A stretch of DNA of 43,755 nt from Oscillatoria salina IIICB1 (lineage in GTDB: Bacteria; Cyanobacteriota; Cyanobacteriia; Cyanobacteriales; SIO1D9): assembly GCF_020144665.1 (NCBI RefSeq), contig NZ_JAAHBQ010000068.1, positions 1-43,755 of the forward strand, read 5' to 3'. Positions 1-31,831 of this stretch are shown piece after piece. The notes beneath the pieces were generated by a model. It did not search any database. It saw only the letters and a program-made list of their open reading frames with translations, and had not been told where the DNA came from. The position numbers and the translations under genes are program-made. Position 1 is the first letter of the stretch, and each line of letters opens with the position of its first letter.

Positions 1-19
1 TTTAGGTGGAGGATGTACC

Positions 20-49
20 TTGCGCCTTATTTCCTTTTTGTGCTATAAT
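20..49 (+). promoter_or_regulatory. Candidate sigma70-type promoter of tnpB
   Basis: TTGCGC at 20-25 and a perfect TATAAT at 44-49 are separated by 18 bases and lie 28 bases before the chosen tnpB start. The -10 match is strong and the -35 match moderate. Assignment is by consensus only. Confidence 0.45.
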
Positions 50-77
50 TAATTTATCATTAATACTTTTTACGGTA

Positions 78-1250
78 ATGTTGAAAGCAACAAAGTTCCG
101 AATCTACCCAACCGCAGAGCAAAGATACCATCTTGCTCAAAGCTTCGGTTGCTGCCGATTTGCCTGGAACTACGCTCTCAACCTTACCAATGAAGCCTAC
201 AAAGCAACGGGAAAAGGTCTAAATCGCTTCGCTATTCAAAAAGAGATAACTAATCTCAAGAAAGAGTACGAATGGATGAACGAGCCTTATTCTCAATGCC
301 TACAAGTAGTCGCCCTCAACCTTTCTAGAGCCTTTATTAACTTCTTTGAGGGGAGAGCATCTTTCCCCCAGTTCAAATCAAAGCATCGCAACCAGTCAAT
401 CAGCTATCCTCAAAACGTTTCTATCGTAGAAGACGGTATAAAATTCCCAAAGATGGGAGTGATGTATGCCAAGATACATAGACCTATTGAGGGAAAAATC
501 AAGACGGTTACGGTGTCGATGAATGCTTTGGGTCAATACTTTGCGTCTGTCTTGGTTGATGATGAAAAAGATATTCCTGAAAAGTCAGTTGAAGGAAAAG
601 CTGTTGGTATTGATTTAGGTTTGACTCATTTTGCTATTACCAGTGATGGTTCTAAATTTGATAATCCTCGTTGGATAGTGAAACATGAACGCAACCTAAG
701 AGCCAAGCAAAAGAGGTTATCTAGGAGACAGAAGGGTTCTAATAGTCGCAACAAAACCCGTAAACAAGTAGCGGGAGTGCATAACAAAATATCAAGATGC
801 AGAGAGGATTTCCACCATAAGCTATCACGCAGGATAGTGGACGAGAACCAAGTCATTGTTGTGGAAAATCTAGCTGTCAAAAACATGGTCAAGAATCACT
901 GTCTCGCTAAAGCAATTAGTCAGGTGGGTTGGGGTCAATTCTGTACTATGTTGAAGTATAAAGCTGAGTGGGAAGGAAAGGTTTACATTGAAGTAGATAG
1001 ATTCTTCCCTAGCTCTAAAACCTGCAACGTTTGCCTCAATCAAGTAAGAAGCCTTCCCCTTGATGTGAGGACTTGGCAGTGTCAGAAGTGCCAGACTACG
1101 CACGATCGAGACGTAAATGCTGCTAAGAACATCAGAGATGAAGGACTGCGTATTTTATCCTCTGGAACGGGGGAGATCGCCTATCGCCCAGATGTAAGAC
1201 GGGATAGTAGAGGACGCAAGAAATCTACTATTTCGCAGTCTGTTGGATAG
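78..1250 (+). CDS. tnpB: TnpB, RNA-guided endonuclease of an IS200/IS605 (IS1341-type) element
   Basis: The protein begins MLKATKFRIYPT, the canonical TnpB N-terminus. The reading frame is open back to position 6, but those extra 24 codons are hydrophobic and unlike the family, so the ATG at 78 is preferred (390 residues). The three RuvC acidic motifs are present: GIDLG, the Glu of VVENLAVKNM, and the Asp of HDRDVNAAKN. Between the last two sits a CxxC...CxxC zinc finger (CNVC and CQKC). All catalytic residues look intact. Known TnpB proteins use an RNA from the element's right end to cut the donor site DNA; the transposase proper is TnpA, and none is visible here. This is therefore a tnpB-only element, or its tnpA lies elsewhere. 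The right-end hairpin follows the stop codon directly. Confidence 0.93.
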   Translation: MLKATKFRIYPTAEQRYHLAQSFGCCRFAWNYALNLTNEAYKATGKGLNRFAIQKEITNLKKEYEWMNEPYSQCLQVVALNLSRAFINFFEGRASFPQFKSKHRNQSISYPQNVSIVEDGIKFPKMGVMYAKIHRPIEGKIKTVTVSMNALGQYFASVLVDDEKDIPEKSVEGKAVGIDLGLTHFAITSDGSKFDNPRWIVKHERNLRAKQKRLSRRQKGSNSRNKTRKQVAGVHNKISRCREDFHHKLSRRIVDENQVIVVENLAVKNMVKNHCLAKAISQVGWGQFCTMLKYKAEWEGKVYIEVDRFFPSSKTCNVCLNQVRSLPLDVRTWQCQKCQTTHDRDVNAAKNIRDEGLRILSSGTGEIAYRPDVRRDSRGRKKSTISQSVG

Positions 1251-11809: not shown

Positions 11810-12694
11810 GTGAAAATTATTTCATATTTACAACAAATCCCCAAGCCGATAATTTTTGGCATTGGCATTATCCAATTGCTACTTATCGGGACAATTGATT
11901 ATCTAGTAATTAACCATATTAGTCTGGCGATTTTTTATTTATTGCCGATTATTTTTACTACCTGGTTTTGGCATGAAATTGCCGGTATGGTTATTTCCTT
12001 TTTAAGTGCAGTTGCTTGGTTGAATGCCTACTATGCTGAAGAAGTTTGTTTGACTTTAAATCCGTCAATTCCTTATTGGAATGCGGCAGTAAGATTTAGT
12101 TTCTTTATCATTATTACCCACTTATTGGCAGCCCAAAAACGTGCCTACGATCGTGAAAAAGATTTCGCTAGAAGCGATTCGTTAACTGGAGTTGCTAATA
12201 GAAGATTCTTTTTTGAAATGCTCGAAGATGAAATCAAACGCAATCATCGCTACAAAAGTCCCCTAACTCTTGCTTATTTGGATGTGGATGATTTTAAAAC
12301 AGTTAACGATCGCTATGGTCATAATAAGGGCGATCAGTTACTATGCTTGATCGGTACGGTTTTAACGAGGGAAACCCGTGACACAGATATAGTAGCTCGT
12401 ATGGGTGGAGATGAATTTGCGTTATTGTTAACAGAAACCGATTACGAATCAGCCGAAAAAGCTTTGGTAAGAATTGTATCTAAACTGATAGAAGCAGTAC
12501 AAATTCAGTCTTTCCCGGTAGGATTTAGTGTCGGTGCGGTGACGTTAGTAGAGTTTGTGCAATTAGCGAATACAGTTCACTTAGCACAATCGATTCTCAA
12601 ACAAGCAGATACGTTAATGTATGCTGTGAAAGAAACTGGCAAAAATAGGATCAAACACGAACTTTTTGGAGAAAATGAACTGGATGTAGTATAG
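11810..12694 (+). CDS. Membrane diguanylate cyclase (GGDEF)
   Basis: 294 residues from a GTG start. Four hydrophobic segments (about residues 12-110) are followed by a canonical GGDEF domain (about 122-285). It has DSLTGVANRRFF, LDVDDFKTVNDRYGHNKGDQ (metal and guanine contacts intact), MGGDEFA, and the inhibitory I-site RDTD five residues before GGDEF. The product should convert two GTP to c-di-GMP with product inhibition. The membrane part is a simple multi-helix module without a recognised sensor. It stands alone on the plus strand; the next gene is convergent. Confidence 0.93.
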   Translation: MKIISYLQQIPKPIIFGIGIIQLLLIGTIDYLVINHISLAIFYLLPIIFTTWFWHEIAGMVISFLSAVAWLNAYYAEEVCLTLNPSIPYWNAAVRFSFFIIITHLLAAQKRAYDREKDFARSDSLTGVANRRFFFEMLEDEIKRNHRYKSPLTLAYLDVDDFKTVNDRYGHNKGDQLLCLIGTVLTRETRDTDIVARMGGDEFALLLTETDYESAEKALVRIVSKLIEAVQIQSFPVGFSVGAVTLVEFVQLANTVHLAQSILKQADTLMYAVKETGKNRIKHELFGENELDVV

Positions 12695-14448: not shown

Positions 14449-15228
14449 TCAACTATGTAAGTCTAAACGTTTAAACATTGCTTCACGCGCTTGTAAGGCG
14501 AGAGAATCATCAAGTTTTGTTAAGAAAATCTCGGTTTGGTACTTTTGATGAAGGGCGGTTTGAATTAACCAGTCGGCGAGGAAGGGATTTTTGGGTAGAA
14601 GAGGACCGTGAGAATAGGTGGCGATCGCCCGCCGATAAAATGCGCCTTCGGTACCGTCTTCGCCGTTGTTACCGTAGCCTTTAATAACTTTTCCTAGGGG
14701 TTCTACTTGACCTAAATAGGTACGTCCGCCATGATTTTCAAAGCCAATAATTACTGGGTTTTTCCCCAAGTTGGCTTTTAAGTCCTCTGCTAGAGGTGAG
14801 GCGGTCAATTCAAAGACTACATTACCGATGCAGCGACGGGCATCTATACCAGGATGTTTGCTGACGAGATCGAGGATTCCTAAGCCTTCAATTCGCTGTC
14901 CTAAGGCTGGTTCGTAGTAGTGACCGAGGAGTTGGGGAGAACCGCAAGTAAATACGCCGGGAATTCCTTGTTCGAGGCGATCGCGTAGTTGGTCTGCTTT
15001 TGCACCGCGTAAGTCCCGCATGACGATTTCTTGTTGACGATCTTGCGCCCCACCACCGACGAAAATGTCAACATTGGTAAAGGTCGCGGGATCGCTTTCT
15101 CGGTCTAAACTGATGACTGATACGTCAATTCCGCGCCACTGACAGCGACGTTTTAAGCAGATGACGTTTCCGCGATCGCCGTAGGTACTCATTAAATTGG
15201 GATACAGCCAACCAATCTTTAATTCCAT
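14449..15228 (-). CDS. gatD: GatD-like glutamine amidotransferase, partner of MurT
   Basis: 259 residues, a CobB/CobQ-type class I glutamine amidotransferase. The nucleophile is Cys95 in VFTCGSPQLLGHYY and the catalytic His is His207 in ATYSHGPLLPKNP, the typical GatD/CobQ end. The N-terminus (IGWLYPNLMSTYGDRGNVIC) is diagnostic of GatD. In Staphylococcus and Streptococcus, GatD supplies ammonia to MurT to amidate the D-Glu of lipid II to D-isoglutamine. It lies 73 bases after murT on the same strand, so the pair forms an operon. Whether the cyanobacterial pair does the same reaction is unproven. Confidence 0.9.
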   Translation of the reverse strand: MELKIGWLYPNLMSTYGDRGNVICLKRRCQWRGIDVSVISLDRESDPATFTNVDIFVGGGAQDRQQEIVMRDLRGAKADQLRDRLEQGIPGVFTCGSPQLLGHYYEPALGQRIEGLGILDLVSKHPGIDARRCIGNVVFELTASPLAEDLKANLGKNPVIIGFENHGGRTYLGQVEPLGKVIKGYGNNGEDGTEGAFYRRAIATYSHGPLLPKNPFLADWLIQTALHQKYQTEIFLTKLDDSLALQAREAMFKRLDLHS

Positions 15229-15301
15229 CTTTATTTAAGACTAATTTTTCCAGAAAATATCTTTACTAATTACCTTGACAAATTACGCTTTTTAGGATCG
15301 A

Positions 15302-16648
15302 CTATAAAATTTTTCTTCCTGTTAAAATTTCTCGGACTTCTAACATCGCCGAATAGGTAGGAAGAATGTGTAAGGTTTCGTCAGCAGGAGTAATTTCTAA
15401 AGCTGTGGTAATCGCTTCAGATAAATTTTCCTTGATGATTAGCTGGAAATTTTCGGGAGTTTGTGCTAATTGTTCGAGACAATATTGTAAGCGCAGGGTC
15501 ATATCATAAACGCGATCGCCACTCACGACAATTGTGCCTCCTAAGCTGACCAATTTTTCCAGATCTACGTCCCAAATCCAAGATACATCTGTACCATCGG
15601 GAAGGCGATCGTTAAGGACAATTAAAGTTGTGGAGGCTTTCCCAGTTTTTTTGATGTCATTAACCGCCCTAATTGTTTCATTCATTCCTACCGGATTTTT
15701 TGATAATAAAATGCGGACGTGCTTATTAGCAACAGTTAACTCTTCCGCCCGACCAAAAGCCGCCCGAAAATTCTTAATTACGTCAAAAATTGTTGCTGTA
15801 TCGATGCCAATTTCTTTAGCTAACAATCCGGCGGCGAGAGTATTATATTTGTTATAAACTCCGATCAGAATTTGACCCCACTCCGGACTATAAACGGCGG
15901 GCTGACTTTTGTGAAAACCGCAACTCGGACAGCTAAAATCACCGAGATGAGATAAATAAACTCCTTCATAATCAAGGAGATGTCCGCAACTCGGACAGTA
16001 AATTGAATCTACTGCATGAGGAATTTCATCCAGGTAAAGTTCGGGTTCGCTTAAACCAAAAAATAACACTCGCTGACGTAATTGTTGACCCAAGTAAGAT
16101 AAAGTAGGGTCATCTGCATTGAGAATCACTACAGTATCATCAGGTAAAGGCGCGATCGCCTGCTGCCATCTTTGAGAAATTGTATCAACTTCGCCGTAAC
16201 GATCCAACTGATCGCGAAACAAATTCAAACCTAAAATATACTTGGGCTGACAATCGCGCAAAACCAAAGGTAAGACATTTTCATCTACTTCGAGAATCGC
16301 ATAATCAGCATCAAGTTTACCAGTTAATTTCGTACTAGCTAATAACGCCGTCGCCAAACCATTAATTAAATTTGCACCAGTGGCATTATGAACAACTTTT
16401 GCACCTTGACTTTCCAGAATTGTTCGTAACAGCAAAGAAGTCGTCGTTTTTCCATTCGTACCCACTACCAAAATTACACCCTTTTTCACTTGGGCGAATA
16501 ACTGAGGAAGTACCTGAGAATGGACGCGAGTCGCTATTTCGCCCGGTAAAACCGAAGCTGCGCCTAATTTCAGCGATCGCACTAGGGACGTGACTGTTTT
16601 CGCTACGCCAACTGCTAAACCTAAACGTACTTTATCAGCTACTTGCAT
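15302..16648 (-). CDS. murT: MurT-like Mur ligase (lipid II isoglutaminyl synthase subunit)
   Basis: 448 residues. The Mur ligase ATP site GTNGKTTT is at residues 63-70. The central domain contains a Cys4 zinc ribbon (Cys218, 221, 240, 243; CPSC...CPSC), which is a MurT feature not found in MurC-F. The C-terminal DUF1727 domain has VLNDRLPDGTDVSWIWDVDL. With GatD it would form the MurT/GatD complex. The N-terminal 40 residues are hydrophobic-amphipathic (VGVAKTVTSLVRSLKLG), as in other MurT proteins. The pair is best known from Gram-positive bacteria; homologues in cyanobacteria suggest either peptidoglycan amidation or another amidated Mur-like product. Confidence 0.9.
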   Translation of the reverse strand: MQVADKVRLGLAVGVAKTVTSLVRSLKLGAASVLPGEIATRVHSQVLPQLFAQVKKGVILVVGTNGKTTTSLLLRTILESQGAKVVHNATGANLINGLATALLASTKLTGKLDADYAILEVDENVLPLVLRDCQPKYILGLNLFRDQLDRYGEVDTISQRWQQAIAPLPDDTVVILNADDPTLSYLGQQLRQRVLFFGLSEPELYLDEIPHAVDSIYCPSCGHLLDYEGVYLSHLGDFSCPSCGFHKSQPAVYSPEWGQILIGVYNKYNTLAAGLLAKEIGIDTATIFDVIKNFRAAFGRAEELTVANKHVRILLSKNPVGMNETIRAVNDIKKTGKASTTLIVLNDRLPDGTDVSWIWDVDLEKLVSLGGTIVVSGDRVYDMTLRLQYCLEQLAQTPENFQLIIKENLSEAITTALEITPADETLHILPTYSAMLEVREILTGRKIL

Positions 16649-16793: not shown

Positions 16794-19124
16794 TTACTTT
16801 TTCCCTAATAACAGATAAGTAGTCATTTCTCCTTTGCCTTTAATAGGGATTGTGCCACGTTCTGGCAAAAGATAACGATCGCCCAAACGAGATCGAGTAG
16901 CCGCCGTCACTTGAATGCAACCGGGGATACCGTGAGATTCCATACGACTAGCAATATTAACTGTATCGCCCCAAAGGTCATAAATAAACTTTTTCCTGCC
17001 AATTACGCCAGCGACAACCGATCCCGTGTGTATGCCAATACGAATTTTAAAGCTTTTTCCGGTTTCGAGATTAAATTGCGCGATCGCTGCTTGCATCTGT
17101 AGTGCCATTTCCGCAACTACTTCCGCATGATCCGGACGCTGAATCGGCAATCCACCGACTACCATATAAGCATCGCCGATCGTTTTGATTTTTTCTAGCT
17201 GCAACTGTTCGGTGAGGCGATCGAATTCAGAGAAAATTTCATTCAGCATTTCGACTATTTCGATAGCTGGATATTGGGAAGCTAACTCGGTAAAGCCAAC
17301 CAAATCAGCAAATAGCACCGTCACCGACTCGAAACTATCGGCGATCGTGCTAGTATTCTGCTTGAGACGTTCGGCGATCGCTTCGGGCAAAATATTCAGC
17401 AGTAAAGTTTCAGTTTGCTGTTGTTGCTGTCGCAAAGCTTCTTCTGCTTGTAAGCGGGCAGTAATATCCCGAAAAATCCCTCGTGTAGCCACTGGTTTTC
17501 CATCAACAAATTTACAATTAATGCTTCCTTCTAAAGAAATTTTTTCACCTTTTTTACTCATTAATGCTATTTGTACTCGTTCGATATTTTCTCCTGAGAT
17601 AATTTTCTGAAAAGTTGATAAACAATGTTGCCGAGAATCGGTATGGACAATTTCAAACATGGTCATTTTCCGAATTTCTGCGTCGCTATAACCAAGGGTT
17701 TCTCGCCAAGCATTGTTAACATATAAAAATTTACCTTCCACATTGACACTTTGAATGAGATCGCTTGCATTTTCAAACAAATCTCGATATCTTTTTTCAC
17801 TTTCGCGCAACTTCTGTTCGGCTTGTTTGCGTTTAATAAATTGACCGATTTGATTTCCCGTAGCCGCCATCATTTGCAACAGTTCTGGATCTGGTGGCTG
17901 TTGTTTGCTGCTAAAAAAAGTCATCACTCCTAAAACTTCTTCTCGTTCTTTAATTGGAAAACCAAAAGCCGAGTTTAGTCCTACTTTAACAGCAAAAGAT
18001 TGTTTGCCAAAATAAATATTATTAATCAGATCGGTAATCCATTTGGGAGAACCACTTGACCAAACTATTCCTGCTAATCCAAATCCGGCTATGAGCGTAA
18101 CTCTACCCGTAACTTCAATAAATTCTGTAACTTTTTCCTCGGGTTTAGACCAAATTTTCACTCGTTGCAAGCAGTTGGAATTGGTGTTTACAAGTTCGCT
18201 TTCCGAATCAAAAACTGGCATCCAAAGTTCGCCTATTTCCCATTCTAAAGATTCACAAACTGCTTGCAATATTTTTGGGGTTGCTATTTCCAAATCATGG
18301 GATTCAGAAAGAATTTTTGCTAGCGCATACTGGGCGGTTAGACGCTGTTGCGTTCGCTTGCGTTCGGTGATATTTCGTCCCACATAAATAAACTCATAAG
18401 AGTCTTTTATTTCTGTTTCTGCTACAGAACAAGAAAAAGCAACAATAATTTTAGTTCCATTTTGACAACGACAAACGACTTCGAGAATTAATTCTTTTTT
18501 TTGTAAAAGATTTTCATGATGCAACGATAAATCAAATTGAGGATTGTCAACCAAGTAAGTTAATTTTTGTTCGAGTATTTCTGTTTCTAGATAGCCAAAT
18601 AAATCGCAAGCAGCTTGGTTGACTTTTTTGATTTTTCCACTTGCGGTAGTAACTACTAAGGCGTCAGCTATGGAAGTAACAATTTTATTGGTATAGTCGC
18701 GAGTTTTTTCTAAAGCATTAACTAATAATTGAGTTTCATTTGTTGCTTGAACCAACGTTTGCTCTAAACTCATTTTATCAGTCACATTCTCGAGAAAAAT
18801 AATTAAACAATTACAGTTATTTTTTGAGTCAAAATATTTGTTAAAATAAAGATCGAAATAAATATTTTCTTGGTTAAATGTCTGACGAGTAATTGCTTTT
18901 AAATCAAAGTAATCTTGCTCTCCGTCTAAAACAGCAACTAAAATTTCTTCGCAGCCAAAAAGTTCGGGAAAACCGTTACGGATATCTTCTCCGATGGTAA
19001 GCTCGTCTACAGAATCAAAAAACTGAGTAATTCCAGGAGAGTAGCTAAGAATAATCAAATCTCGATTGACTAATATATAACTGATGTGGTTGGGGGTAAT
19101 TATATTTGGTAAAAAGTGTTTCAT
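16794..19124 (-). CDS. PAS/GAF-regulated class III adenylate cyclase
   Basis: 776 residues, no transmembrane segment. N-terminal sensor region (about 10-120), PAS (about 145-260), GAF (about 275-440), second PAS with PAC (about 445-560, SEKRYRDLFENASDLIQSVN), a Q-rich coiled linker, and a class III cyclase domain (about 590-776). Metal ligands are Asp607 (FADLVGFT) and Asp651 (GDAYM). Substrate residues are Lys645 and Asp716 (the adenylate pair), with transition-state residues Asn723 and Arg727. It should make cAMP. The first 250 residues match those of the GGDEF protein at 19720-21618 in order and many motifs (SPG/SPR, FPELFG, YFDLYF, DYTNKI/DYVDKI). It is last on its strand in the GTPase locus, 141 bases after a protease relic. 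Confidence 0.93.
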   Translation of the reverse strand: MKHFLPNIITPNHISYILVNRDLIILSYSPGITQFFDSVDELTIGEDIRNGFPELFGCEEILVAVLDGEQDYFDLKAITRQTFNQENIYFDLYFNKYFDSKNNCNCLIIFLENVTDKMSLEQTLVQATNETQLLVNALEKTRDYTNKIVTSIADALVVTTASGKIKKVNQAACDLFGYLETEILEQKLTYLVDNPQFDLSLHHENLLQKKELILEVVCRCQNGTKIIVAFSCSVAETEIKDSYEFIYVGRNITERKRTQQRLTAQYALAKILSESHDLEIATPKILQAVCESLEWEIGELWMPVFDSESELVNTNSNCLQRVKIWSKPEEKVTEFIEVTGRVTLIAGFGLAGIVWSSGSPKWITDLINNIYFGKQSFAVKVGLNSAFGFPIKEREEVLGVMTFFSSKQQPPDPELLQMMAATGNQIGQFIKRKQAEQKLRESEKRYRDLFENASDLIQSVNVEGKFLYVNNAWRETLGYSDAEIRKMTMFEIVHTDSRQHCLSTFQKIISGENIERVQIALMSKKGEKISLEGSINCKFVDGKPVATRGIFRDITARLQAEEALRQQQQQTETLLLNILPEAIAERLKQNTSTIADSFESVTVLFADLVGFTELASQYPAIEIVEMLNEIFSEFDRLTEQLQLEKIKTIGDAYMVVGGLPIQRPDHAEVVAEMALQMQAAIAQFNLETGKSFKIRIGIHTGSVVAGVIGRKKFIYDLWGDTVNIASRMESHGIPGCIQVTAATRSRLGDRYLLPERGTIPIKGKGEMTTYLLLGKK

Positions 19125-19265
19125 ACCTGCTAGTCCTAAACAAGATTTTTCACATTGGTATAATTAAGGTTATACCTGCTTGGTGTGATTGACTGTGAAT
19201 CTCGCTCGGAGTTGTCTAAGGGAGTGCTAACAGGAAAGAGAGCTTTAATTTAGAGTGCGATCGCG

Positions 19266-19394
19266 TTAAATAGTTGATGTCAAAAAAATATTTTTAACTG
19301 CTAAAGCATCTACAGCAATTATCTCTCGATCGGCAGTGACTAACTCAATTTCAAAATATAACTCTCCATTGTTACCAAAATAACCTTGAATCAT
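19266..19394 (-). pseudogene. Truncated retropepsin-like (clan AA) aspartic protease remnant
   Basis: ATG at 19394 overlaps the stop of the upstream gene (ATGA). The frame reads MIQGYFGNNGELYFEIELVT, then ADREIIAVDAL and ends after 42 codons. The beginning matches the common cyanobacterial clan AA protease partner (MIQG-F----GE-FFEIEL), which normally runs about 120 residues with an LLDTGF active site after this point. Here the DTG segment and everything beyond are missing. It is probably a deletion relic; the short peptide could still be translated. Confidence 0.65.
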
Positions 19395-19699
19395 ATTTTC
19401 CCCACACACCCAGTTTCATTCAGACGCTTTTCCAAAATTCGCGCATTGGGGTACTTTTGTCGAGCTTTTTGAAAAGCAACTTCTGGATCGAGATCGACAA
19501 AATACTCGCCGCTTTCTGGTTCGATTATAATTGCCCAGTTATAATAATCGCCTACTAATTCAGGATAGACGCGCCAAAATATCTCTCGACAGCGTTGGGC
19601 GAAAGCGTTATCTGCGGCGGTGCGTTGGGCTATTTCTGTCGCAGAAAGACGAGGTTGAGAGGGAAATAAAGGCGTTTTGCGGGAAGTTTTCTCAGTCAT
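19391..19699 (-). CDS. Small conserved cyanobacterial protein, usual partner of a clan AA protease
   Basis: About 102 residues from the ATG at 19699 (a GTG at 19714 is possible). The C-terminal half, WAIIIEPESGEYFVDLDPEV then AFQKARQKYP and RLNETG-C-GKI, is the signature of a widespread short cyanobacterial family that is usually encoded just before a retropepsin-like protease. This matches the arrangement here: its stop overlaps the relic's start by four bases. It begins 20 bases after the GGDEF gene and probably shares that transcript. Function is unknown; an antitoxin-like or substrate role has been neither shown nor excluded. Confidence 0.75.
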   Translation of the reverse strand: MTEKTSRKTPLFPSQPRLSATEIAQRTAADNAFAQRCREIFWRVYPELVGDYYNWAIIIEPESGEYFVDLDPEVAFQKARQKYPNARILEKRLNETGCVGKI

Positions 19700-19719
19700 A
19701 TCGCTCAATAACACTCAGG

Positions 19720-21618
19720 TTACTTTATTATATGAGCCGCAACGACACGCGATCGCCCGGTTTCTTTGGCTTGTTTCAAAGCGCGATCGGCAGCTTCGAC
19801 TAAATTTTCGGGAGTATAATTACTGTCAGGAATCATGCTCGCAACTCCCAAACTGAGAGAAAGATATGCGCTCGCTAGCGATCGGTGATGAGGTATCTTT
19901 TTTTCGAGGATAGTCAGACAAATTGTTTCTGCGACGTGGATAGCGCCTGGTTGAGAAGTATTAGGTAAAATAATCGCAAATTCATCACCACCATAACGAG
20001 CTACAAGATCGGCGGAACGTTTGACTAATTCAGACAAAATATTAGCTATTTCTTGCAAACAAAAATCACCCGCCAGAAGCCCATAAGTATCGAGATAAGC
20101 TTTACCATAATCAAGATCGCAGAGAATTATCGACAAGGGTTGTTGCTCGCGGTAAAGTCTGCACCACTCAAAAATAAGACGTTCCTCAAAAGTACGACGG
20201 TTAGCTAATTTGGTGAGCGGATCGATAATTGCTAGTTGGGTTAATTCTTGATTAGTAAGTTGTAATTGTTGGTATAATTCGGCTTGCTGAATAGCTATTG
20301 CCAGTTGTTTGACAAGTTCTTCAATTAAATCAATCTCCCATTTTTCCCAGACTCTTATTTGAGTTTGATGAACAATTAAAAAACCCCATAATTTTCGCGA
20401 TAAAATACCTAATTGACTATTAAGAAGGGCAGCTTTACACAAAATTGGGATTACTAATTCAGATTGTACTGAAAACTCTTTCAGGGTTTCTAAATAACTA
20501 GGAGCAAAGTTAGCTGTTTCCAGGTTCGATCTAGCGCTTATTTTTCCTTGTTGATAAGCTTGAAGTAAGCTTGATTCAAACTGAGGATAGGCAGAATTAT
20601 TAACTAACTCAGGAATAGATCGATCGGCGACAACTTCAGCTTTTGAAGTTAAAGTAGAACCAGGTAAAAACTGATAAATTAAGACGCGATCGCACTCAAA
20701 AAAGTCCCGCACTTCTGTCACGATTGAGTTAAAAATCTCTTCTAATTTCAGCGACTCCCGCAGTTTCTCACTCACCAAACGCAAAAAGCGCGATTGTTTC
20801 CCCGATAAAAACAATTGCATTTCAATTTGCTTGCGTTTAGTGATATCTCTGCCAATAAAAACCAAATCACTATTTGTGGTTTTCTCTGACGCGATCGCTA
20901 CACCAACCTTGCGGTACACCGCTTGGGTTGCTGGCGCTATCCCGCCAATCGCTGCACCAGAAAAAGCGACAAATATTTGTTCTCCAGTTTTCTTGATACA
21001 AGTCACTTCAGAATATTTACCTAACAAGTTTTCCGGTAAAAAGTTTTCTCGATCTTCGCTCAAAAGAACTGAGATTGGTTTACCTATTAACTCTTCTCGC
21101 TCGTAACCAAAAATTTCAACTGCGGCGCGATTTGCTGTTTTAATTTTTCCTGTTTTCGTCGTTACCAACAAAGCATCAAGCATCGCAGAAATAATTTTAT
21201 CAACATAATCTTTTGCTGCTGATAAATCATTTAACAACAAGCTATATTCATTCGCACCTTGAACCAATCTTTGTTCGATAATTTTACTTTCTGTAACATC
21301 TTGAATGACTAGAAGTAAGCGATCTTCTTCTCCCTGAAAATATAAATCGAAATATAACAAATTTCCCTCAGCCGAACTGCGAGCAATTCCTTTAAGATCG
21401 AATTTTTTTTTCCTTCCATCAATAATTTCGCTGAGTAAATCTTCTAGACCAAATAATTCCGGAAAACTCAAACGCACATCAGATCCTACTTGGGGTTTTT
21501 CAGCAGGATCGGCAAACTTTCCGACCCGAGGAGATAGTTCTTGAATCAGAAAATTTTTGTTAATGACTAAATATTCTATTTGGCTAAGAGCTATAACTTT
21601 TTTTTGGTCAATTTTCAT
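19720..21618 (-). CDS. PAS-GAF-GGDEF protein (diguanylate cyclase-like)
   Basis: 632 residues, soluble. An N-terminal sensor region shared with the cyclase at 16794 (about 10-115) and a PAS domain (about 140-255) are followed by a phytochrome/cyanobacteriochrome-like GAF (about 280-455; [39 protein letters not shown]). A GGDEF domain completes it (about 465-630; [22 protein letters not shown]-site RSAD). In the GAF, the Cys-His that binds bilin reads Ser-Tyr ([11 protein letters not shown]). In the GGDEF, the substrate segment reads [18 protein letters not shown], lacking the Asn that contacts guanine. Its ATG overlaps the GTPase stop (ATGA), so the two are translationally coupled. Confidence 0.9.
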
Positions 21619-22148
21619 TTTATTTTCAGCATATTATAAGCTAATTTGTGAAAAATTTCATCGACATCTTTCCCGGTTTTTGCTGATGTAGTATGAGCAG
21701 CAATTACTTGGGGTTGTTCGGGAAAATGAACAAGTTTAAATTGTGCTTCAAGTTCTTCTTCGCTAACCAAATCTAATTTATTCAAAGCAATAACTGCAAG
21801 ACCTTTGGGACAAACCGAAAAAAATAAATCGAGATGTTGCTGTAGATTCTCAATTGTTTCCGAACGAGTTACATCAGCAACAATAATTGCTCCTTTCGCT
21901 CCTTGTAAATAACTAGGTGCGATCGCTTTAAACTTCGTTTGTCCTTCAATATCCCAAACGATCAACTGTACTTGCTGATTTCCTGTCCCTTCTGGAGCAG
22001 GTACTTCAACTGATTTGCGGGAAATTTTTACTCCTACTGTTGATAAATACCGATCGCTAAATTGACGGTCTACAAAGCGGCGAATTAAGCTTGTTTTGCC
22101 AACGCTAAAATCACCAACTAAACAAATTTTTTTAGAAATTACTGACAT
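21615..22148 (-). CDS. Ras/Rab-like small GTPase (prokaryotic Rup type)
   Basis: 177 residues, one small-GTPase domain. G1 is GDFSVGKTS (12-20), G2 Thr37 in YLSTVGVK, G3 WDIEGQ (65-70, with the catalytic-type Gln70), G4 NKLD (123-126), and G5 TSAK (154-157). There is no C-terminal lipidation motif, as expected in bacteria. Ras-superfamily GTPases outside MglA are known in many prokaryotes, mostly with unknown function. The gene lies 7 bases after the longin-OmpA gene and overlaps the GGDEF gene by 4, so it sits in the middle of an operon with a probable longin partner (its likely regulator or membrane anchor) and a second-messenger enzyme. Confidence 0.92.
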
Positions 22149-22155
22149 ACTTAAC

Positions 22156-24867
22156 TTACTCTTCTTGCGTACTTATGTATGGCTCAAATCTAACTACTCT
22201 ACTCAAGCGTAACGGCTGATTAATAGCAATATTTGGAGGACTTTCTGGACTACCAAAAATTTCTAATCTTGTTGCTTCAATACCTCGCTTTTGCAAAGCA
22301 TCTCGAACAGTTTTAGCTCGTTTAATCGCCAGATCTTCATTTTGCTCTTTTGTTCCTTGACGATCTGCGTGACCAATAATTTTTAACTTGACTTGGGGAT
22401 TTTGCTTGAGTAATTCGCTAATCGGAATCAGTGTCTTGTTTATTTCTGATAAATTCAAGTTGGCTGAACCGGAATCAAAATAAATTCGCTTTTTTAAGAG
22501 AGGTTCTCCTAGTTGAAAAACATTAACAACCGATCTAACTCCAGGAACTTGCTCTAAAACTTGAGTAACTTTTGCAACATCGCTAATTTGAGCGATATTA
22601 CCGTTAACTGTTACTTTCCCAGCTTCGTAGCGAGCAAAAATTTCGATTCCTTTTTTTTGATTGAATAAAGATGTTACTCGCTCTATTTCTGCTATAGTTA
22701 ATTCTGGATTTGTCGGTACATCAACAGCGATAATTTGGTTATTTAAGTCAAAATTTGGTGCAATTTCACCTGCAACTTCACCTGCTAAAGAGCGTAAAGA
22801 TTCGCTCGGTACTCGTCCTTTTAAAATTAATTTATCTCGCTTGAATTCTGGAACTAGGCGATAAACTGATAACTCAGGAGTTGCATCTAAAGCTATGGCT
22901 GTTTTTGTTTCAATTCGGCGAGCTATCCAACTACGATACTGGTAATATCCCCCAGGTATTCCTAACAGAAATAGTAAAAGTAAGCCCAGTTTTAAAAACC
23001 CTAGAGCAGGGGTTTTTTTCTCTCTGTCTTCAGTTTTCTTATCGGCTTTAAGTAATGCTTTTAAAAATTCTTCAATCGCTTCAGGAATTGTGCCTGGATC
23101 GCCGTCAAATTCTTGAATTTCACGATCGTATTCTTCAACAATTTTCCCTAGAGTAGCGCGCATTTTTTCAATAAATTCTTTTGATGGTGCGCCATCAATT
23201 ACCACTGCTAGATAGCAGTATCCGGCTACTTCAATAACAATTTTTGAGTTACCGTATTCAATCTCTGTTAGTTCCGAAACTTCGCCATTTTGGACAATAC
23301 AATCGTAGACAAAACTCCGGATCGCGGTTAGCATTCCGGCTAACATATCGCCTTCTAATTTTTGTGATTCAATCGGTTGTACGTCGCGAATTAGTAAGCC
23401 AGAAGTTTTGTGAATTAAAAAGATAGCTTGGATCGAAAATCCTAAAGATTCTCGTAAGATTAATTCGGCTTCCGAAACTCCTTGAAAAGCAGCACGCATT
23501 TTGCGGCTAATTCCTTCTGGAGAAAGGGCGCTTTCTACTTTTTGATTAATACTTTGCACTACTTCTGTCATGTATTTAGCAACAGTATTACCAATTACTG
23601 GATATAGTGCATCTACCATTGCGTCACGCTCGTAAGCAATTTGAGCCTTGATTGCTCTACCCATTTCCGGACCGAGAGTTTTTGCGATCGCACCTTGCTG
23701 AAGTCTGATTTGTTCCCGGATAGCGATCGCGATTTCGGGAGCGATCGCGCGCGCGATCGCTTCTGGTTGTTTTTCGATTTCGTGAGTAATTGCTTCTGGG
23801 AGAATCTCCGCGAGGATACTACTCATTCCTCGTAGGTTGTACAAACCTCGCTCTTGAATTAATTCGTCAACTACGGGTGTTAAGGTTTCTATCATGATTT
23901 CCCGCGAATCGTTGACGCGCATTTTTAATAATTCGGTCATTAAAGGTATGAGCGGATTAATTAATTCTGTCGGTTCATATACTTGATTTTCTAACTCCTT
24001 TAATTTAGCTTCGAGATTAATAATTATTTGACGCAGTTTACCTAACTCAGCACTGTCTGTCGTTAGCACTTCCCCTCGCTCGACAATTCCAGGAGTTATC
24101 TTTTTTTGTTCTTTGTTTTCTACGTTCGCTCCTACCGAAATATTATTTTTTTCTTCTCTTACTACTCGCTGATTTTCTAACTCGCTCGCTCCAGCTGTTT
24201 TTTCCCACTCTAACTCGATAAACTTTCGCTTCTCAGGTTCGGTTTTACTTTCTACTTCGGCTAGTTTTTGGCGCTCTTTTTGGGCTATTTCTGACTCAAA
24301 TTTAGTCGCTGGCAAACTTCTGCGCTCGGTCTTGCTTTTTTGTTCAATTTGTGCTAAAGTATTACTGTTAACTTCGGTCTCCACAGAACTACCTACAGCT
24401 TTACCCGACTCTGAATCAAAGAGCAAATTTTCTAAACTCGACCAAAGAAAATCGAGTTCCGCAGAATTATTTGACAAATCTGTTACTTCGTTACCAGTTT
24501 CCTGGGATTCATTTTTCTCAGATTTTGAGTCAATTTCGTCAGCAACTAGCTCTCTTTCGGGGAAAGAAAAAAGTGGCGATCGCGGATTATCTTCCTGGGA
24601 ATTTCTCCCTACCCAATCCCCTTTTTCTTGCTCAACATTTACCCTTGACTGTTTTAACTTTTTCTTTTCTAAACTCGATTTAAATCCTGAATTATCCTCA
24701 GCCAAAATAACTTGAGAATCTGGCGTTAAGTTAGCATCTAAAATACCTAATTCCCACAACAATTTGAGCAAATTTTCTAATTGTTCTCGGTTATTATTAT
24801 TGCTAGATTCATCAGGCAAAATTGATTTTTCTCGATCGCTATTAGAAGATAATCTTGAACTTTTCAT
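22156..24867 (-). CDS. Longin-like / transmembrane / two-BON / OmpA-C protein
   Basis: 903 residues. A polar disordered region (1-270), a long helical region (about 270-460) with repeated PEAI-ARAI-type turns, and a longin/roadblock-like domain (about 475-582; SIQAIFLIHKTSGLLIRD, GDMLAGMLTAIRSFVYDC, IEYGNSKIVIEVAGYCYLAV). One transmembrane helix (about 623-640), two BON-like domains (about 655-717 and 724-786; KVTVNGNI, LEQVPGVRSVVNVF), and an OmpA C-terminal domain (about 792-896) follow. The peptidoglycan-binding residues Asp835 (HADRQGT) and Arg850 (NEDLAIKRA) are present. The topology puts the longin domain in the cytoplasm and OmpA on the cell wall, bridging the inner membrane. It is the operon partner of the GTPase. 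The longin assignment is by secondary-structure pattern. Confidence 0.88.
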   Translation of the reverse strand: MKSSRLSSNSDREKSILPDESSNNNNREQLENLLKLLWELGILDANLTPDSQVILAEDNSGFKSSLEKKKLKQSRVNVEQEKGDWVGRNSQEDNPRSPLFSFPERELVADEIDSKSEKNESQETGNEVTDLSNNSAELDFLWSSLENLLFDSESGKAVGSSVETEVNSNTLAQIEQKSKTERRSLPATKFESEIAQKERQKLAEVESKTEPEKRKFIELEWEKTAGASELENQRVVREEKNNISVGANVENKEQKKITPGIVERGEVLTTDSAELGKLRQIIINLEAKLKELENQVYEPTELINPLIPLMTELLKMRVNDSREIMIETLTPVVDELIQERGLYNLRGMSSILAEILPEAITHEIEKQPEAIARAIAPEIAIAIREQIRLQQGAIAKTLGPEMGRAIKAQIAYERDAMVDALYPVIGNTVAKYMTEVVQSINQKVESALSPEGISRKMRAAFQGVSEAELILRESLGFSIQAIFLIHKTSGLLIRDVQPIESQKLEGDMLAGMLTAIRSFVYDCIVQNGEVSELTEIEYGNSKIVIEVAGYCYLAVVIDGAPSKEFIEKMRATLGKIVEEYDREIQEFDGDPGTIPEAIEEFLKALLKADKKTEDREKKTPALGFLKLGLLLLFLLGIPGGYYQYRSWIARRIETKTAIALDATPELSVYRLVPEFKRDKLILKGRVPSESLRSLAGEVAGEIAPNFDLNNQIIAVDVPTNPELTIAEIERVTSLFNQKKGIEIFARYEAGKVTVNGNIAQISDVAKVTQVLEQVPGVRSVVNVFQLGEPLLKKRIYFDSGSANLNLSEINKTLIPISELLKQNPQVKLKIIGHADRQGTKEQNEDLAIKRAKTVRDALQKRGIEATRLEIFGSPESPPNIAINQPLRLSRVVRFEPYISTQEE

Positions 24868-24934
24868 AAGCTGCTATCGGTTACTTTTTCAATGCACCTT
24901 TTTCCTCTTATATTATTTTCAACATATCCTTACC

Positions 24935-25585
24935 TTATTCTTGGATTTTAGTATCCCGCTCGATCGAATGTTTCTTTTCTTCATTTTTGCCATCATCAGG
25001 TAACAAAAACTCTGCCTTCATTTTACTATCTGCTGCTTCTTTCAAATCGGGAACAAAATCCGAACCTTTAACTTTGATACAAAGTTCAAATAAAACTTCA
25101 GCAAGATCGTCCCGAGAAATTTTAGTTTCTTTCAGGTTAGCAAACCGCTTTTGCAGTTCTTCCAAGACCAAAATTTGTAAATTGTTTACCTCTTGATTTA
25201 ACTTTTCTCTGGATTGTTCTAATTCTGAACTCAAAGCATTAGTACGACTATTTAAATTACTATGAATAGTTTCCATGCGGTAAATGACTTTTTCTCGTTC
25301 TTCGTCAGTTTGTTGACGAATTTTAGTCATTTCTTCGTGACTAGTCAAACTGAGATATTTAAGTTTTTTCTCCCAAGAATCTACAGCCGCATTTAAATCA
25401 GCCGAGAAAGAATCTTGAATTTGCTGAAATTCTTCGCGCATCTCTTGCTTAAGTTCAGCTAACTCTATTTCAACTTTTTGAAAGCGTTGCTCAAATTGGC
25501 GCGTTTTGTCACCAAACAAAAGGTCGCGAATTTGCTCAATATTACCGAGTCTTTCCCGCATTTCATCTTTACTAAGATCGGACAT
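24935..25585 (-). CDS. Coiled-coil protein, first gene of the GTPase/OmpA operon
   Basis: 216 residues, almost entirely helical: heptads run from about 12 to 145 (RFQKVEIELAELKQEMREEF; SSELEQSREKLNQEVNNLQI). A short globular part follows (about 147-175; RDDLAEVLFELCIKVKG), then a charged tail. Its N-terminal segment GNIEQIRDLLFGDKTRQFEQ looks like a conserved motif of small proteins found beside OmpA-domain genes in bacteria. No signal or transmembrane helix, so it is cytoplasmic. It ends 67 bases before the longin-OmpA gene and is divergent from the PSI factor. Confidence 0.8.
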   Translation of the reverse strand: MSDLSKDEMRERLGNIEQIRDLLFGDKTRQFEQRFQKVEIELAELKQEMREEFQQIQDSFSADLNAAVDSWEKKLKYLSLTSHEEMTKIRQQTDEEREKVIYRMETIHSNLNSRTNALSSELEQSREKLNQEVNNLQILVLEELQKRFANLKETKISRDDLAEVLFELCIKVKGSDFVPDLKEAADSKMKAEFLLPDDGKNEEKKHSIERDTKIQE

Positions 25586-29023: not shown

Positions 29024-31831
29024 ATGCTGCAAAAAATCTGGCGGTGGCTGAAAAACCTCATCCAGCGACTTCTCTCACCCACCCCACCACCACCACCTAC
29101 CCCACCTCCCCAGCCACCCCGCAAAACTGACACCGAATACGAAAACATCCTTATGGAGTTACTCGACGGTGTAGACGCTGGCTGGAGTCGCGGCAAGATC
29201 AAAGGCTTTTTAATCGGGAAAAACACCACTGATAAGAAACTAGCTGCATGGTTGCGTGATTTTGGACAACGATGGGAGTCAACCGAACAACATCGAGAAT
29301 TAGGGCGACGATTGCGTAAACTGGGTAGAGAAATTGAAGGGGAATTAGGACAAGTAGCCACAGCCATTGCTACGCGACTGCAACCCGTTTCACCACCACC
29401 AGATGTGACTTTCAGCGAAGCGACAGATGCTAATCTACCTCCAGTGTCAAGAAGCCCAGAAGCAGCAGCGTTATATAATCGAGGTGGAGAGAAATATTAT
29501 GCAGGAGATTTGTTAGGTGCGATCGCCGATTTTACCCAAGCCATAACCCTCAATCCTAACGACTACCAAGCATATACTAATCGAGGCAGTGTCTATGCTG
29601 AATTAGGACGCTACACAGAGGCTATTGATGATTATACCCAAGCCATAACTCTCAATCCTAACTACTACCAAGCATATTACAATCGTGGCTTTGTCTATAA
29701 TGCTTTAGGACGCTATGAAGAGGCGATCGTCGATTATACCCAAGCCATAACCCTCAATCCTAACTTCTACGACGCATATACTAATCGTGGCTTTGTCTAT
29801 CATGAATTAGGACGCAACGAAGAGGCGATCGCCGATTTTACCCAAGCCCTAACCCTCAATCCTCACCACTACCAAGCATATACTAATCGTGGCGCTGTCT
29901 ATGATGAATTAGGACGCAACGAAGAGGCGATCGCCGATTATACCCAAGTCATAACCCTCAATCCTAACTTCTACGACGCATATACTAATCGTGGCATTGT
30001 CTATAATGCTTTAGGACGCAACGAAAAGGCGATCGCCGATTACGATCAAGCTTTGTCTATCAAACCTGATTCTTGGCAAGCTTGGAAAAATCGCGGCTGG
30101 GCAATTTTCAACAGCAGAGGCTACCAAGCAGCGATTGAAAACTGGGATGAGGGGTTAACGAAACTCAATCCCGATAACCCAGAATACCAACTCGGTTGCG
30201 GTACACTGCATTATGACAAAGGCAAGGCATACTTTTACCAGGCGAAGCGAGAAGAACATCAATGGCGTATATTTTGCCGCGAGGCGATTAAAAGTTATAG
30301 AGAAGCCCTAGCTATCTTAGAAGATAACCCGAAACTGCGGGAAACCTATCTCGAAGTCTCACAAAAATTAGTCATTGCTTATCGCAGCGTCGGCGACGAG
30401 GAAAAAGCCAAACAAACCTGGGATACTGCTATTGTCATCTTAGAAAAATGGCTTCTAGAAATCCCCGATCGCCTAAATAAAGATCGCCTCACCCGCAAAT
30501 TTGACCGCTTATACCAGTTAGAAGTCGATCGCCTCGCCCAGTCTACCAACCCCACCGAAAAAATCCAAGCCTTAGTCTTAGCCGAAGCCAGGAAAAATCT
30601 CTGTCTCACTTGGATGCAACCCACCCCAGAAAGCCCCCACTATCAGGAAATTTTACCACTTCTCACCAATCGAAGCGATTCTGGGAACCAAAACCGGGCG
30701 ATAATCTACTGGCATCTCAGCCCCGTAACCATCACCACCTTCATCCTCAAACCAAACGCCGAATTAAAGACTTTCTCCACCCCAACAACCATCTTCGGCG
30801 ACTCTCCCGACTTTGAAACCTGGATGAAAGACTGGAAACAAGACTACGAAAACAGCCGCAAGAAAACCGCAACCACTGACACCTGGAAAAATGATATCGA
30901 CTCGCGACTCAACCAACTCGCGTCAATCCTCAACTTAGCAGCAATTCAAGCCGAAATAACCCACAGCCGCGAACTAATCTTAATTCCCCATCGCGACTTA
31001 CATCTACTTCCCTTACATTACTTTTTCCAAGACACCCACAACACAATTACCTACCTCCCCAGCGCCAAAATCGGCTTATCCCTCGCTACCAAACCTGCGA
31101 CACCCCTCACCCCTAACGCTAAGTTACTGAATATCGAACCAGAAACCAACGCAGGTTTACTCTTTGCGGAACTTGAAGCGGCGGTTATTACTCATTTTTA
31201 CCAAAAAAATACCCATTTATACGCAAACGCCGACGCAAATAATGTTATCGCTGCGATGCAACAATCTGCGGCTATTTTCCACTTTACCGGACACGCGGAA
31301 CACAATTTGCAGGCTGCTAATTACTCCGCTTTAGCTTTAGCCAACCAAACCCAACTCACCCAAAAACAAATTTTCGAGTTAGAATTACCTGCGTATGAAT
31401 TAGTTTGTCTTTCTGCTTGCGAAACTGGCTTAACCGGAAAGTCAGAATTAATCAGCGAATTTGTCGGTTTAGCGAGTACCTTTCTCGCGAAGCAAACCAG
31501 CTTTGTTCTCAGTACATTATGGACTGTGAATGAAATCTCGACGGCGCTGATTATAATTGAATTTTACCGCCAATTGCGAACGGGAAAAACGCCCCCGGTT
31601 GCCCTGAAACAAGCCCAAAATTGGTTGCGTAGCGTCACTTATCGAGATTTAGCGAAATGGTATCGCGAATTAGCGGCGGATGTAGCAGCTACGAATGAAG
31701 ATTGTCAAGAAGATTTAGAAGCAGATGCGGCAATTATTGAGCAGGATTCAGCTAAAATGGAAGCAAATCTTCCTCCTTATCGCAGTGCGTATTTTTGGGC
31801 TGGTTTCGTCCTGACAGGTAAGGTATTGTAG
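29024..31831 (+). CDS. TPR-CHAT caspase-like protease
   Basis: 935 residues. A Pro-rich stretch (19-32) leads to a helical N-terminal domain of about 90 residues (DTEYENILMELLDGVDAGWS). At least seven TPR units of 34 residues follow (about 147-385; NRG-VY-ELGR-EEAIADYTQA-TLNPN), then a further helical region and a C-terminal CHAT domain (about 560-935). The catalytic dyad is His757 (FTGHAEHN) and Cys799 (LSACETG). CHAT proteases are separase/caspase relatives; TPR-CHAT proteins act in type III-E CRISPR (Craspase) and other bacterial cell-death systems, but many cyanobacterial ones have no known role. The TPR DNA repeats at 102 bp are nearly identical, implying recent expansion. Confidence 0.92.
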   Translation: MLQKIWRWLKNLIQRLLSPTPPPPPTPPPQPPRKTDTEYENILMELLDGVDAGWSRGKIKGFLIGKNTTDKKLAAWLRDFGQRWESTEQHRELGRRLRKLGREIEGELGQVATAIATRLQPVSPPPDVTFSEATDANLPPVSRSPEAAALYNRGGEKYYAGDLLGAIADFTQAITLNPNDYQAYTNRGSVYAELGRYTEAIDDYTQAITLNPNYYQAYYNRGFVYNALGRYEEAIVDYTQAITLNPNFYDAYTNRGFVYHELGRNEEAIADFTQALTLNPHHYQAYTNRGAVYDELGRNEEAIADYTQVITLNPNFYDAYTNRGIVYNALGRNEKAIADYDQALSIKPDSWQAWKNRGWAIFNSRGYQAAIENWDEGLTKLNPDNPEYQLGCGTLHYDKGKAYFYQAKREEHQWRIFCREAIKSYREALAILEDNPKLRETYLEVSQKLVIAYRSVGDEEKAKQTWDTAIVILEKWLLEIPDRLNKDRLTRKFDRLYQLEVDRLAQSTNPTEKIQALVLAEARKNLCLTWMQPTPESPHYQEILPLLTNRSDSGNQNRAIIYWHLSPVTITTFILKPNAELKTFSTPTTIFGDSPDFETWMKDWKQDYENSRKKTATTDTWKNDIDSRLNQLASILNLAAIQAEITHSRELILIPHRDLHLLPLHYFFQDTHNTITYLPSAKIGLSLATKPATPLTPNAKLLNIEPETNAGLLFAELEAAVITHFYQKNTHLYANADANNVIAAMQQSAAIFHFTGHAEHNLQAANYSALALANQTQLTQKQIFELELPAYELVCLSACETGLTGKSELISEFVGLASTFLAKQTSFVLSTLWTVNEISTALIIIEFYRQLRTGKTPPVALKQAQNWLRSVTYRDLAKWYRELAADVAATNEDCQEDLEADAAIIEQDSAKMEANLPPYRSAYFWAGFVLTGKVL

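Follow-up and report, generated by a model that had tools for sequence, protein, structure and literature searches.

A stretch of 43,755 nucleotides of contig NZ_JAAHBQ010000068.1 of Oscillatoria salina IIICB1 (hereafter the window) was analysed, in which a module of six open reading frames (ORFs), all on the minus strand, occupies positions 16794-25585. Judged by its parts and gene neighbourhood, the locus is assigned to the Group 1 Rup modules, a still uncharacterised kind of system described in 2014. Two previously unassigned domains of these systems are newly identified here from structure models, and are predicted to be a longin domain and a PAS-type domain, named PAS-A.

Gene and domain content of the module

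The first gene of the module (24935..25585) encodes a cytoplasmic coiled-coil protein of 216 amino acids (aa), recognized by visual inspection and from weak Pfam matches to coiled-coil families. It is followed by a 903-aa protein with a longin domain, a transmembrane segment, a BON-like and an OmpA domain (22156..24867), which is a putative wall-anchored receptor, and by a 177-aa Rab-like small GTPase of the Group 1 Rup type (21615..22148). A first output protein of 632 aa (19720..21618), a 107-aa protein with a GTG start (19391..19714) and a second output protein of 776 aa (16794..19124) complete the module. The intergenic gaps measure 67, 7 and -4 bases, followed by 5 and 266 bases. A first-pass annotation made by a model from the letters alone had given the same gene order, strand and spacing, and its fourth gap of 20 bases holds when counted from an internal ATG of the 107-aa ORF. 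It had also included this small protein in the proposed system. Neither the coiled-coil protein nor the 107-aa protein matched a Pfam family above its cut-off. The family of the latter reaches up to eight copies per genome and is present in 19 of 146 cyanobacterial genomes, including genomes without the module, and it was rejected as a module member for this reason.

In the 903-aa protein, the OmpA peptidoglycan-binding domain (residues 796-872, 22252..22482) was recognized by Pfam PF00691 with an E-value of 2.7e-15, while the match of the BON-like domain (PF04972, residues 745-786, 22510..22635; E 6e-6) was borderline and, at 26.9 bits, narrowly missed the cut-off of 27. A Kyte-Doolittle scan revealed one hydrophobic segment, the single predicted transmembrane segment, at about residues 619-642 (22942..23013). 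Within the OmpA domain R850 is kept in all 108 aligned proteins and D835 in 72 of them; we take these positions to be those of the Asp and Arg that bind meso-diaminopimelic acid in OmpA.

The most conserved blocks of the protein lie in residues 421-570, around the predicted longin domain (residues ~478-615, 23023..23436). An AlphaFold model of residues 441-640, built from an alignment of 33 sequences, reached a mean confidence (pLDDT) of 84.1 and showed the beta-beta-alpha-beta-beta-beta-alpha-alpha order of longins, with strands at model positions 38-46, 52-56, 94-98, 101-108 and 111-118 and helices at 66-86, 123-145 and 157-175. The top Foldseek rows were longins of Ykt6, AP sigma, sedlin and Sec22b, with a best E-value of 9.7e-5 and template modelling scores, by target length, mostly between 0.4 and 0.76. 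VIA-align ranked the Sec22b longin first (Z 14.5, root mean square deviation 2.7 Å, 126 aligned residues), followed by Vamp7, by the TRAPP longins (Z 12-13) and by Fuzzy from Fuzzy-Inturned (Z 12.6). Lower ranks were taken by a longin of Lokiarchaeal origin (Z 11.7) and a Mon1-Ccz1 chain (Z 10.4). The roadblock protein MglB was found as well, at Z 10.3 over 105 residues. Since the best structural matches are longins and MglB ranks below them, the domain is predicted to have a longin rather than a roadblock fold. No roadblock family was among the families listed in sequence-profile scans of the domain.

Sequence comparison alone lent weak support to the longin identity. In a set of 66 longins kept from 115, the Pfam family Fuz_longin_1 (the first longin of FUZ, MON1 and HPS1) matched five at E<=0.1. 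The best of these, from locus L066, aligned over residues 21-122 of 136 with an E-value of 2.7e-5 and 24.8 bits against a cut-off of 26.1, and the 903-aa protein of the window itself gave no match to this family. A sequence-only comparison of the longin profile with PDB chains returned nothing significant, the best longin-type chains being TRAPP BET5 (E 1.1 and 0.52). The first-pass annotation had proposed a longin at residues 475-582, linked to OmpA by a single membrane helix. The longin fold was indeed recovered by structure prediction, with an end that lies further on, near residue 615, and the fusion is supported by the structure model, the Pfam OmpA match and the single hydrophobic segment. 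Among the literature matches listed, no report of a bacterial longin joined to OmpA or to peptidoglycan binding was found.

The 177-aa protein matched the Pfam Ras family with an E-value of 6.2e-30 and is the sole stand-alone GTPase among three Ras-profile matches in the genome, the other two belonging to frames of 1029 and 465 aa. Among proteins of solved structure it is closest to Rabs, led by Rab12 (1.1e-21), and the best 60 of 411 PDB matches are nearly all Rab, Ypt or SEC4. All G motifs are present, and G3 reads WDIEGQ, including the catalytic Gln. Among 96 distinct GTPases, G1 is GxxxxGKT in every one and switch I hardly varies (YLSTVGVK in 82), while the residue after DxxG is His in 44, Ser in 27, Gln in 11, Glu in 7, Arg in 5 and Asn in 2. 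The catalytic Gln, from which, together with the G motifs, an active switch had been argued at first, is thus present in the window GTPase and is no feature of the family; the argument was rejected on that level, and with its Gln this GTPase may be active. Cysteine occurs within the last six residues of only one of the 96 GTPases, and membrane attachment is therefore likely to be provided by the longin-OmpA partner. No roadblock match was found in the six module proteins or in the 20 neighbouring ORFs scanned.

For the first output protein, Pfam showed PAS, GAF and GGDEF domains (GGDEF match 2.9e-46) with an intact GGDEF motif, and this motif, with RxxD five residues before it, is presumed to mark a diguanylate cyclase. 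The second carries PAS, GAF and PAS domains before a class III cyclase domain (6.8e-65), which we take to be of the adenylyl rather than the guanylyl type from the Lys and Asp in IKTIGDAYM and YDLWGDTVN. The N-terminal 135-140 residues of the two cyclases are related, with 37% identity, and form PAS-A (residues 1-135, 21214..21618, with the conserved Q116 and Q120, and residues 1-140, 18705..19124, respectively). The model of PAS-A (pLDDT 88.7) showed a PAS fold that is extended at its C-terminus by a long helix, its best Foldseek matches were nearly all PAS/LOV domains, and VIA-align gave Z values of about 9-10. A Pfam PAS match was obtained at sequence level for one of 34 members (E ~0.01). 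The shared N-terminal region is therefore a PAS fold as predicted by modelling.

Altogether 118 output proteins were collected, of which the 112 longer than 300 aa gave 63 non-redundant PAS-A carriers, some of them stopping at contig ends. A second PAS follows PAS-A in nearly all carriers (PAS_9 matches in 61 of 63), so that PAS-A and the following PAS are what these outputs share while differing in the rest. Most of the carriers scanned are histidine kinases (HisKA in 33), before class III cyclases (21), GGDEF proteins (4) and a SpoIIE phosphatase (1); four carriers have none of these families. The initial proposal of cyclic di-GMP (c-di-GMP) and cyclic AMP (cAMP) as outputs holds for this genome. 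Among 110 distinct proteins with PAS-A, Q116 is kept in 107 and Q120 in 108, and both belong to the long helix that follows the PAS core (109-134 in the model), a typical place of signal-transfer helices. A further GGDEF protein lies about 4 kb beyond the module (11810-12694, plus strand) and was not found by the PAS-A profile.

Conservation, co-occurrence and variant loci

In a set of 291 cyanobacterial genomes, GTPase matches (E<=0.001) occurred in 48 genomes, of which 33, spread over 13 family labels, were below 1e-20. The longin region matched in 33 genomes and the PAS-A profile in 37, three of them weakly. For the co-occurrence counts, GTPase matches weaker than 1e-20, mostly in long ORFs, were dropped, as were the three weak PAS-A genomes (G051, G074 and G231; E 4e-4 to 5e-4). 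GTPase and longin were then found together in 32 genomes, each alone in one, and neither in 257; for GTPase and PAS-A the counts were 32 together, one and two alone, and 256 with neither. The co-occurrence of the GTPase, the longin-OmpA protein and PAS-A is thus almost perfect. Of 57 strong PAS-A matches, 39 lie within 8 kb of a GTPase match.

The clustering is also beyond chance, as the order of coiled coil, longin-OmpA, GTPase and output recurs in dozens of loci. In 36 stretches from 28 genomes, the first three genes stood in a row in 20, and one more had an output gene between the last two. Among the others were stretches cut by contig ends, four with an orphan longin-OmpA gene, members of a divergent subfamily, a split set and a stretch in which nothing matched. 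A second sample comprised 80 named loci out of 564 confirmed stretches, not all from different genomes: 74 standard loci and six with a longin-OmpA protein of about 1200 aa. It overlaps with the genome set, as several contigs are equally long in both (e.g. L106 and G118:C187, L138 and G261:C242), and the two are not independent. Counted on the same strand within 1.5 kb, where the contig had room, a coiled-coil homologue lies upstream of longin-OmpA in 66 of 71 standard named loci, the GTPase downstream of it in 67 of 72, and a PAS-A output next in 57 of 66. The linkage of GTPase and OmpA genes, by which the first-pass annotation had proposed to check its idea of a functional module, is therefore conserved in relatives, and this recurring linkage and the co-occurrence support that idea.

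Genome G105 holds a pair of GTPase and PAS-A-GGDEF genes without a detectable longin-OmpA gene, which argues for a direct link between GTPase and output. In a divergent subfamily, with a GTPase about 40% and a longin about 30% identical to those of the window, the GTPase gene is directly followed in four of five loci by one for a stand-alone PAS-A-like protein of about 130 aa (127-135 aa; L068 11240-11647, L069 8889-9272, L075 10952-11353 and L079 8794-9192). A profile comparison of this form with PAS-A gave an E-value of 6.5e-5 for the single pair and a probability of 64. The LxQ/IxQ motif is also present in six stand-alone and rhizobial PAS-A-like forms, and in two rhizobial loci the stand-alone type of domain is fused to a cyclase. 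A short histidine-kinase-like protein is encoded further on in L068 (HATPase_c 3e-26), with similar ones seen by eye in L070 and L079.

Paralogues of the longin-OmpA protein of about 1200 aa, without adjacent GTPase, coiled coil or PAS-A, were seen in L064, L065, L066, L067, L156, L158, L160, L174, L176 and L181. Three genomes that hold such paralogues (G039, G099 and G201) have a full module elsewhere.

By their titles, all of the 80 listed loci are cyanobacterial except one, L148, titled Candidatus Gracilibacteria. It carries coiled-coil, longin-OmpA and GTPase genes, with a longin 55% identical to that of the window, and may be a mislabelled cyanobacterial assembly. Besides it, three rhizobial plasmids were found outside the cyanobacteria: a tblastn search of plasmids returned four records, one from Nostoc, two from Rhizobium and one from Mesorhizobium. 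The Mesorhizobium record is annotated as hypothetical protein, OmpA family protein, Rab family GTPase and adenylate/guanylate cyclase, and one Rhizobium record showed the same order by its ORFs. The first protein of these two loci aligns weakly with the coiled-coil protein of the window (~20% identity).

After the module, on the same strand, MurT-like and GatD-like genes were recognized by Pfam at 14449-16648. MurT-GatD is a peptidoglycan-amidation pair. A MurT gene, 76% identical, also follows a pair of GTPase and PAS-A-GGDEF genes in L071, and MurT-like matches (E<=0.001), many of them weak, occur in 274 of the 291 genomes. No fetched flank other than those of the window and of L071 has MurT beside the module, and MurT-GatD was dropped as a conserved partner. 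The window further encodes a 935-aa protein with TPR repeats and a caspase-like CHAT domain (29024-31831, plus strand) and a TnpB-like, IS605-type OrfB transposase with a Cas12f1-like TNB domain (6-1250, plus strand).

A possible switch between cell wall and output proteins

The gene order, domain content, conservation, co-occurrence and predicted folds are what the analysis shows, and the following mechanism is considered on balance the probable explanation of them. The periplasmic OmpA domain of the single-pass membrane protein would bind peptidoglycan and hold the longin domain in the cytoplasm, beneath the membrane. The longin, probably as a dimer and with the coiled-coil protein as accessory, would recruit the GTPase to the membrane and set its nucleotide state. 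In its GTP form, the GTPase would bind the N-terminal PAS-A of the output proteins and alter their activity; in Oscillatoria salina IIICB1 these would be the diguanylate cyclase and the adenylyl cyclase, giving c-di-GMP and cAMP as outputs. The least supported step is the state of the cell wall as the signal.

In this mechanism we infer the binding to the wall, the contacts of the GTPase with longin and with PAS-A, and the direction of the signal. Several points weigh against it. A longin fold alone proves no function, and SNARE longins rank structurally above those of guanine nucleotide exchange factors (GEFs) of Rabs; Sec22b, Vamp7 and Ykt6, which are SNARE longins, are not known as GTPase regulators. 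The genomes are related, and shared descent inflates the significance of the co-occurrence, so that its Fisher values are too strong. Three genomes depart from it: in G195 PAS-A was matched and neither a stand-alone GTPase nor a longin, G193 combines longin-OmpA with PAS-A but gave no match to a stand-alone GTPase, and in G024 GTPase and longin are present but no PAS-A was matched. The remaining 18 of the 57 strong PAS-A matches lie more than 8 kb from a GTPase match or on another contig, although these proteins may be remote effectors. In addition, neither GTPase nor coiled coil adjoins the paralogues of about 1200 aa in any of their six named loci.

The signal could also run in the reverse direction, with PAS-A proteins regulating the GTPase by supplying a Gln in trans as a GTPase-activating protein (GAP), and longin-OmpA acting as an effector on the wall or in localisation. 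The near-invariance of Q116 and Q120, the LxQ/IxQ motif of the stand-alone and rhizobial forms and the lack of a Gln in cis in 85 of 96 GTPases would fit such a role, which the accessible text of PMC4316618 suggests for the N-terminal region. No compensation was seen, however: all 13 PAS-A proteins beside a Gln-bearing GTPase keep both glutamines. As these are kept whether or not the GTPase has its own Gln, the trans-Gln idea gains no support from compensation. The position of both residues in the long helix after the PAS core and the wide variation of the catalytic output domains, as expected of effectors, also speak against such a role, and we regard a reversed signal as unlikely.

Even smaller is the chance that the module controls polarity or motility in the manner of MglA-MglB. 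As such a switch, the GTPase would direct the placement of type IV pili or of machinery of the wall, with the cyclases as secondary outputs. Many carriers of the module are presumably filamentous and motile, judging from their names, and MglB is itself among the structural matches of the longin. Longin and roadblock domains are described as related GTPase platforms in the accessible part of PMC10933270. Yet among the 26 window ORFs scanned, no roadblock family and none named for motility was present. That the genes are merely co-transcribed and serve separate pathways appears very improbable. The unrelated 107-aa gene does sit inside the cluster, but the near-perfect co-occurrence, the recurrence of the gene order across many genera and the same order on rhizobial plasmids all argue for a functional connection of the other genes.

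Returning to the mechanism of a wall-anchored receptor acting through the GTPase on PAS-A outputs, we tentatively propose a wider reading, which is possible though still doubtful: bacteria, namely cyanobacteria and rhizobia, could hold a true Rab-longin switch, in which a Rab-GEF type of longin would be fastened to the wall via OmpA, and PAS-A would let this one switch drive kinases, adenylyl or diguanylate cyclases, or a phosphatase. In the accessible portions of the searched literature, the platform of Rab GTPase and longin is credited to Asgard archaea and eukaryotes. Naming the longin thus bears on the origin of Rab-type regulation: if homology rather than convergence explains the likeness of the longins, the Rab-longin pair may predate eukaryotic membrane traffic, or may have moved between domains of life. 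Naming PAS-A connects cyanobacterial signalling by c-di-GMP, cAMP and kinases with a receptor that putatively binds the wall, and as a common effector domain PAS-A can be used to search for outputs of the switch.

Relation to known systems

The locus had been proposed as an undescribed system in the first-pass annotation, a claim that does not stand, as this cluster type was predicted as the Group 1 Rup system by Wuichet and Sogaard-Andersen in 2014 (PMC4316618). According to the accessible text of that paper, the system consists of a coiled-coil protein, a protein with a conserved domain, a transmembrane segment and OmpA, a Ras-like GTPase (a small one of the Rab/Ras-like branch), and an output protein; the outputs have in common an N-terminal region that holds an invariant Gln. 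The same four parts are present here. The grouping was made by tree position (71 Rup sequences), taxonomy and gene neighbourhood, and a G3 without Gln was reported as a property outside these criteria. As of 2014, according to its authors, no Rup member had been experimentally characterised, and one in Nostoc punctiforme was known to be transcribed. No other papers using the name Rup in this sense were found in the searched literature, which left out most subscription papers.

At the present locus, the GTPase is shorter than 240 aa (177 aa) and has no MglB-like protein among the module proteins and neighbouring ORFs scanned, and it has a coiled-coil and a domain-transmembrane-OmpA neighbour. 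Q116 or Q120, both near-invariant, may be the Gln of the paper. The G3 without Gln is shared by most relatives and not by the window GTPase (WDIEGQ). The accessible text assigns neither the conserved domain nor the N-terminal region, while these are predicted here to be longin and PAS folds, and it gives diguanylate cyclases/phosphodiesterases or histidine kinases as typical outputs, whereas class III cyclases are a main output here too (21 of 63). The stand-alone PAS-A of the divergent subfamily and the Gln in G3 of the window GTPase are further differences.

Like MglA-MglB, the module pairs a bacterial small GTPase with a protein of the roadblock/longin type. MglB is a soluble roadblock protein, whereas the predicted longin is part of a membrane receptor here, and the GTPase is not of the MglA type: Asp 66 of G3 was invariant in 31 aligned GTPases, while the criterion for MglA, as given in the accessible text of PMC4316618, is a G3 without conserved Asp. 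The actinobacterial conservon (Cvn) is likewise a conserved operon, which unites a small GTPase with a membrane protein and a protein of the roadblock type. Its membrane part is a histidine kinase, accompanied by MglB and MglA homologues, with no OmpA or longin named in the accessible text of the same paper.

Rabs with longin GEFs (TRAPP Bet5/Trs23, Mon1-Ccz1 and Fuzzy-Inturned) resemble the module in that its GTPase is closest to Rabs and its longin is similar to those of Fuzzy, TRAPP and Mon1-Ccz1. The GEF role remains putative here, SNARE longins match as well or better, and 95 of 96 GTPases are without a C-terminal Cys for lipidation. In contrast to these systems, the module is bacterial, and its predicted longin is carried by a membrane protein with a peptidoglycan-binding end.

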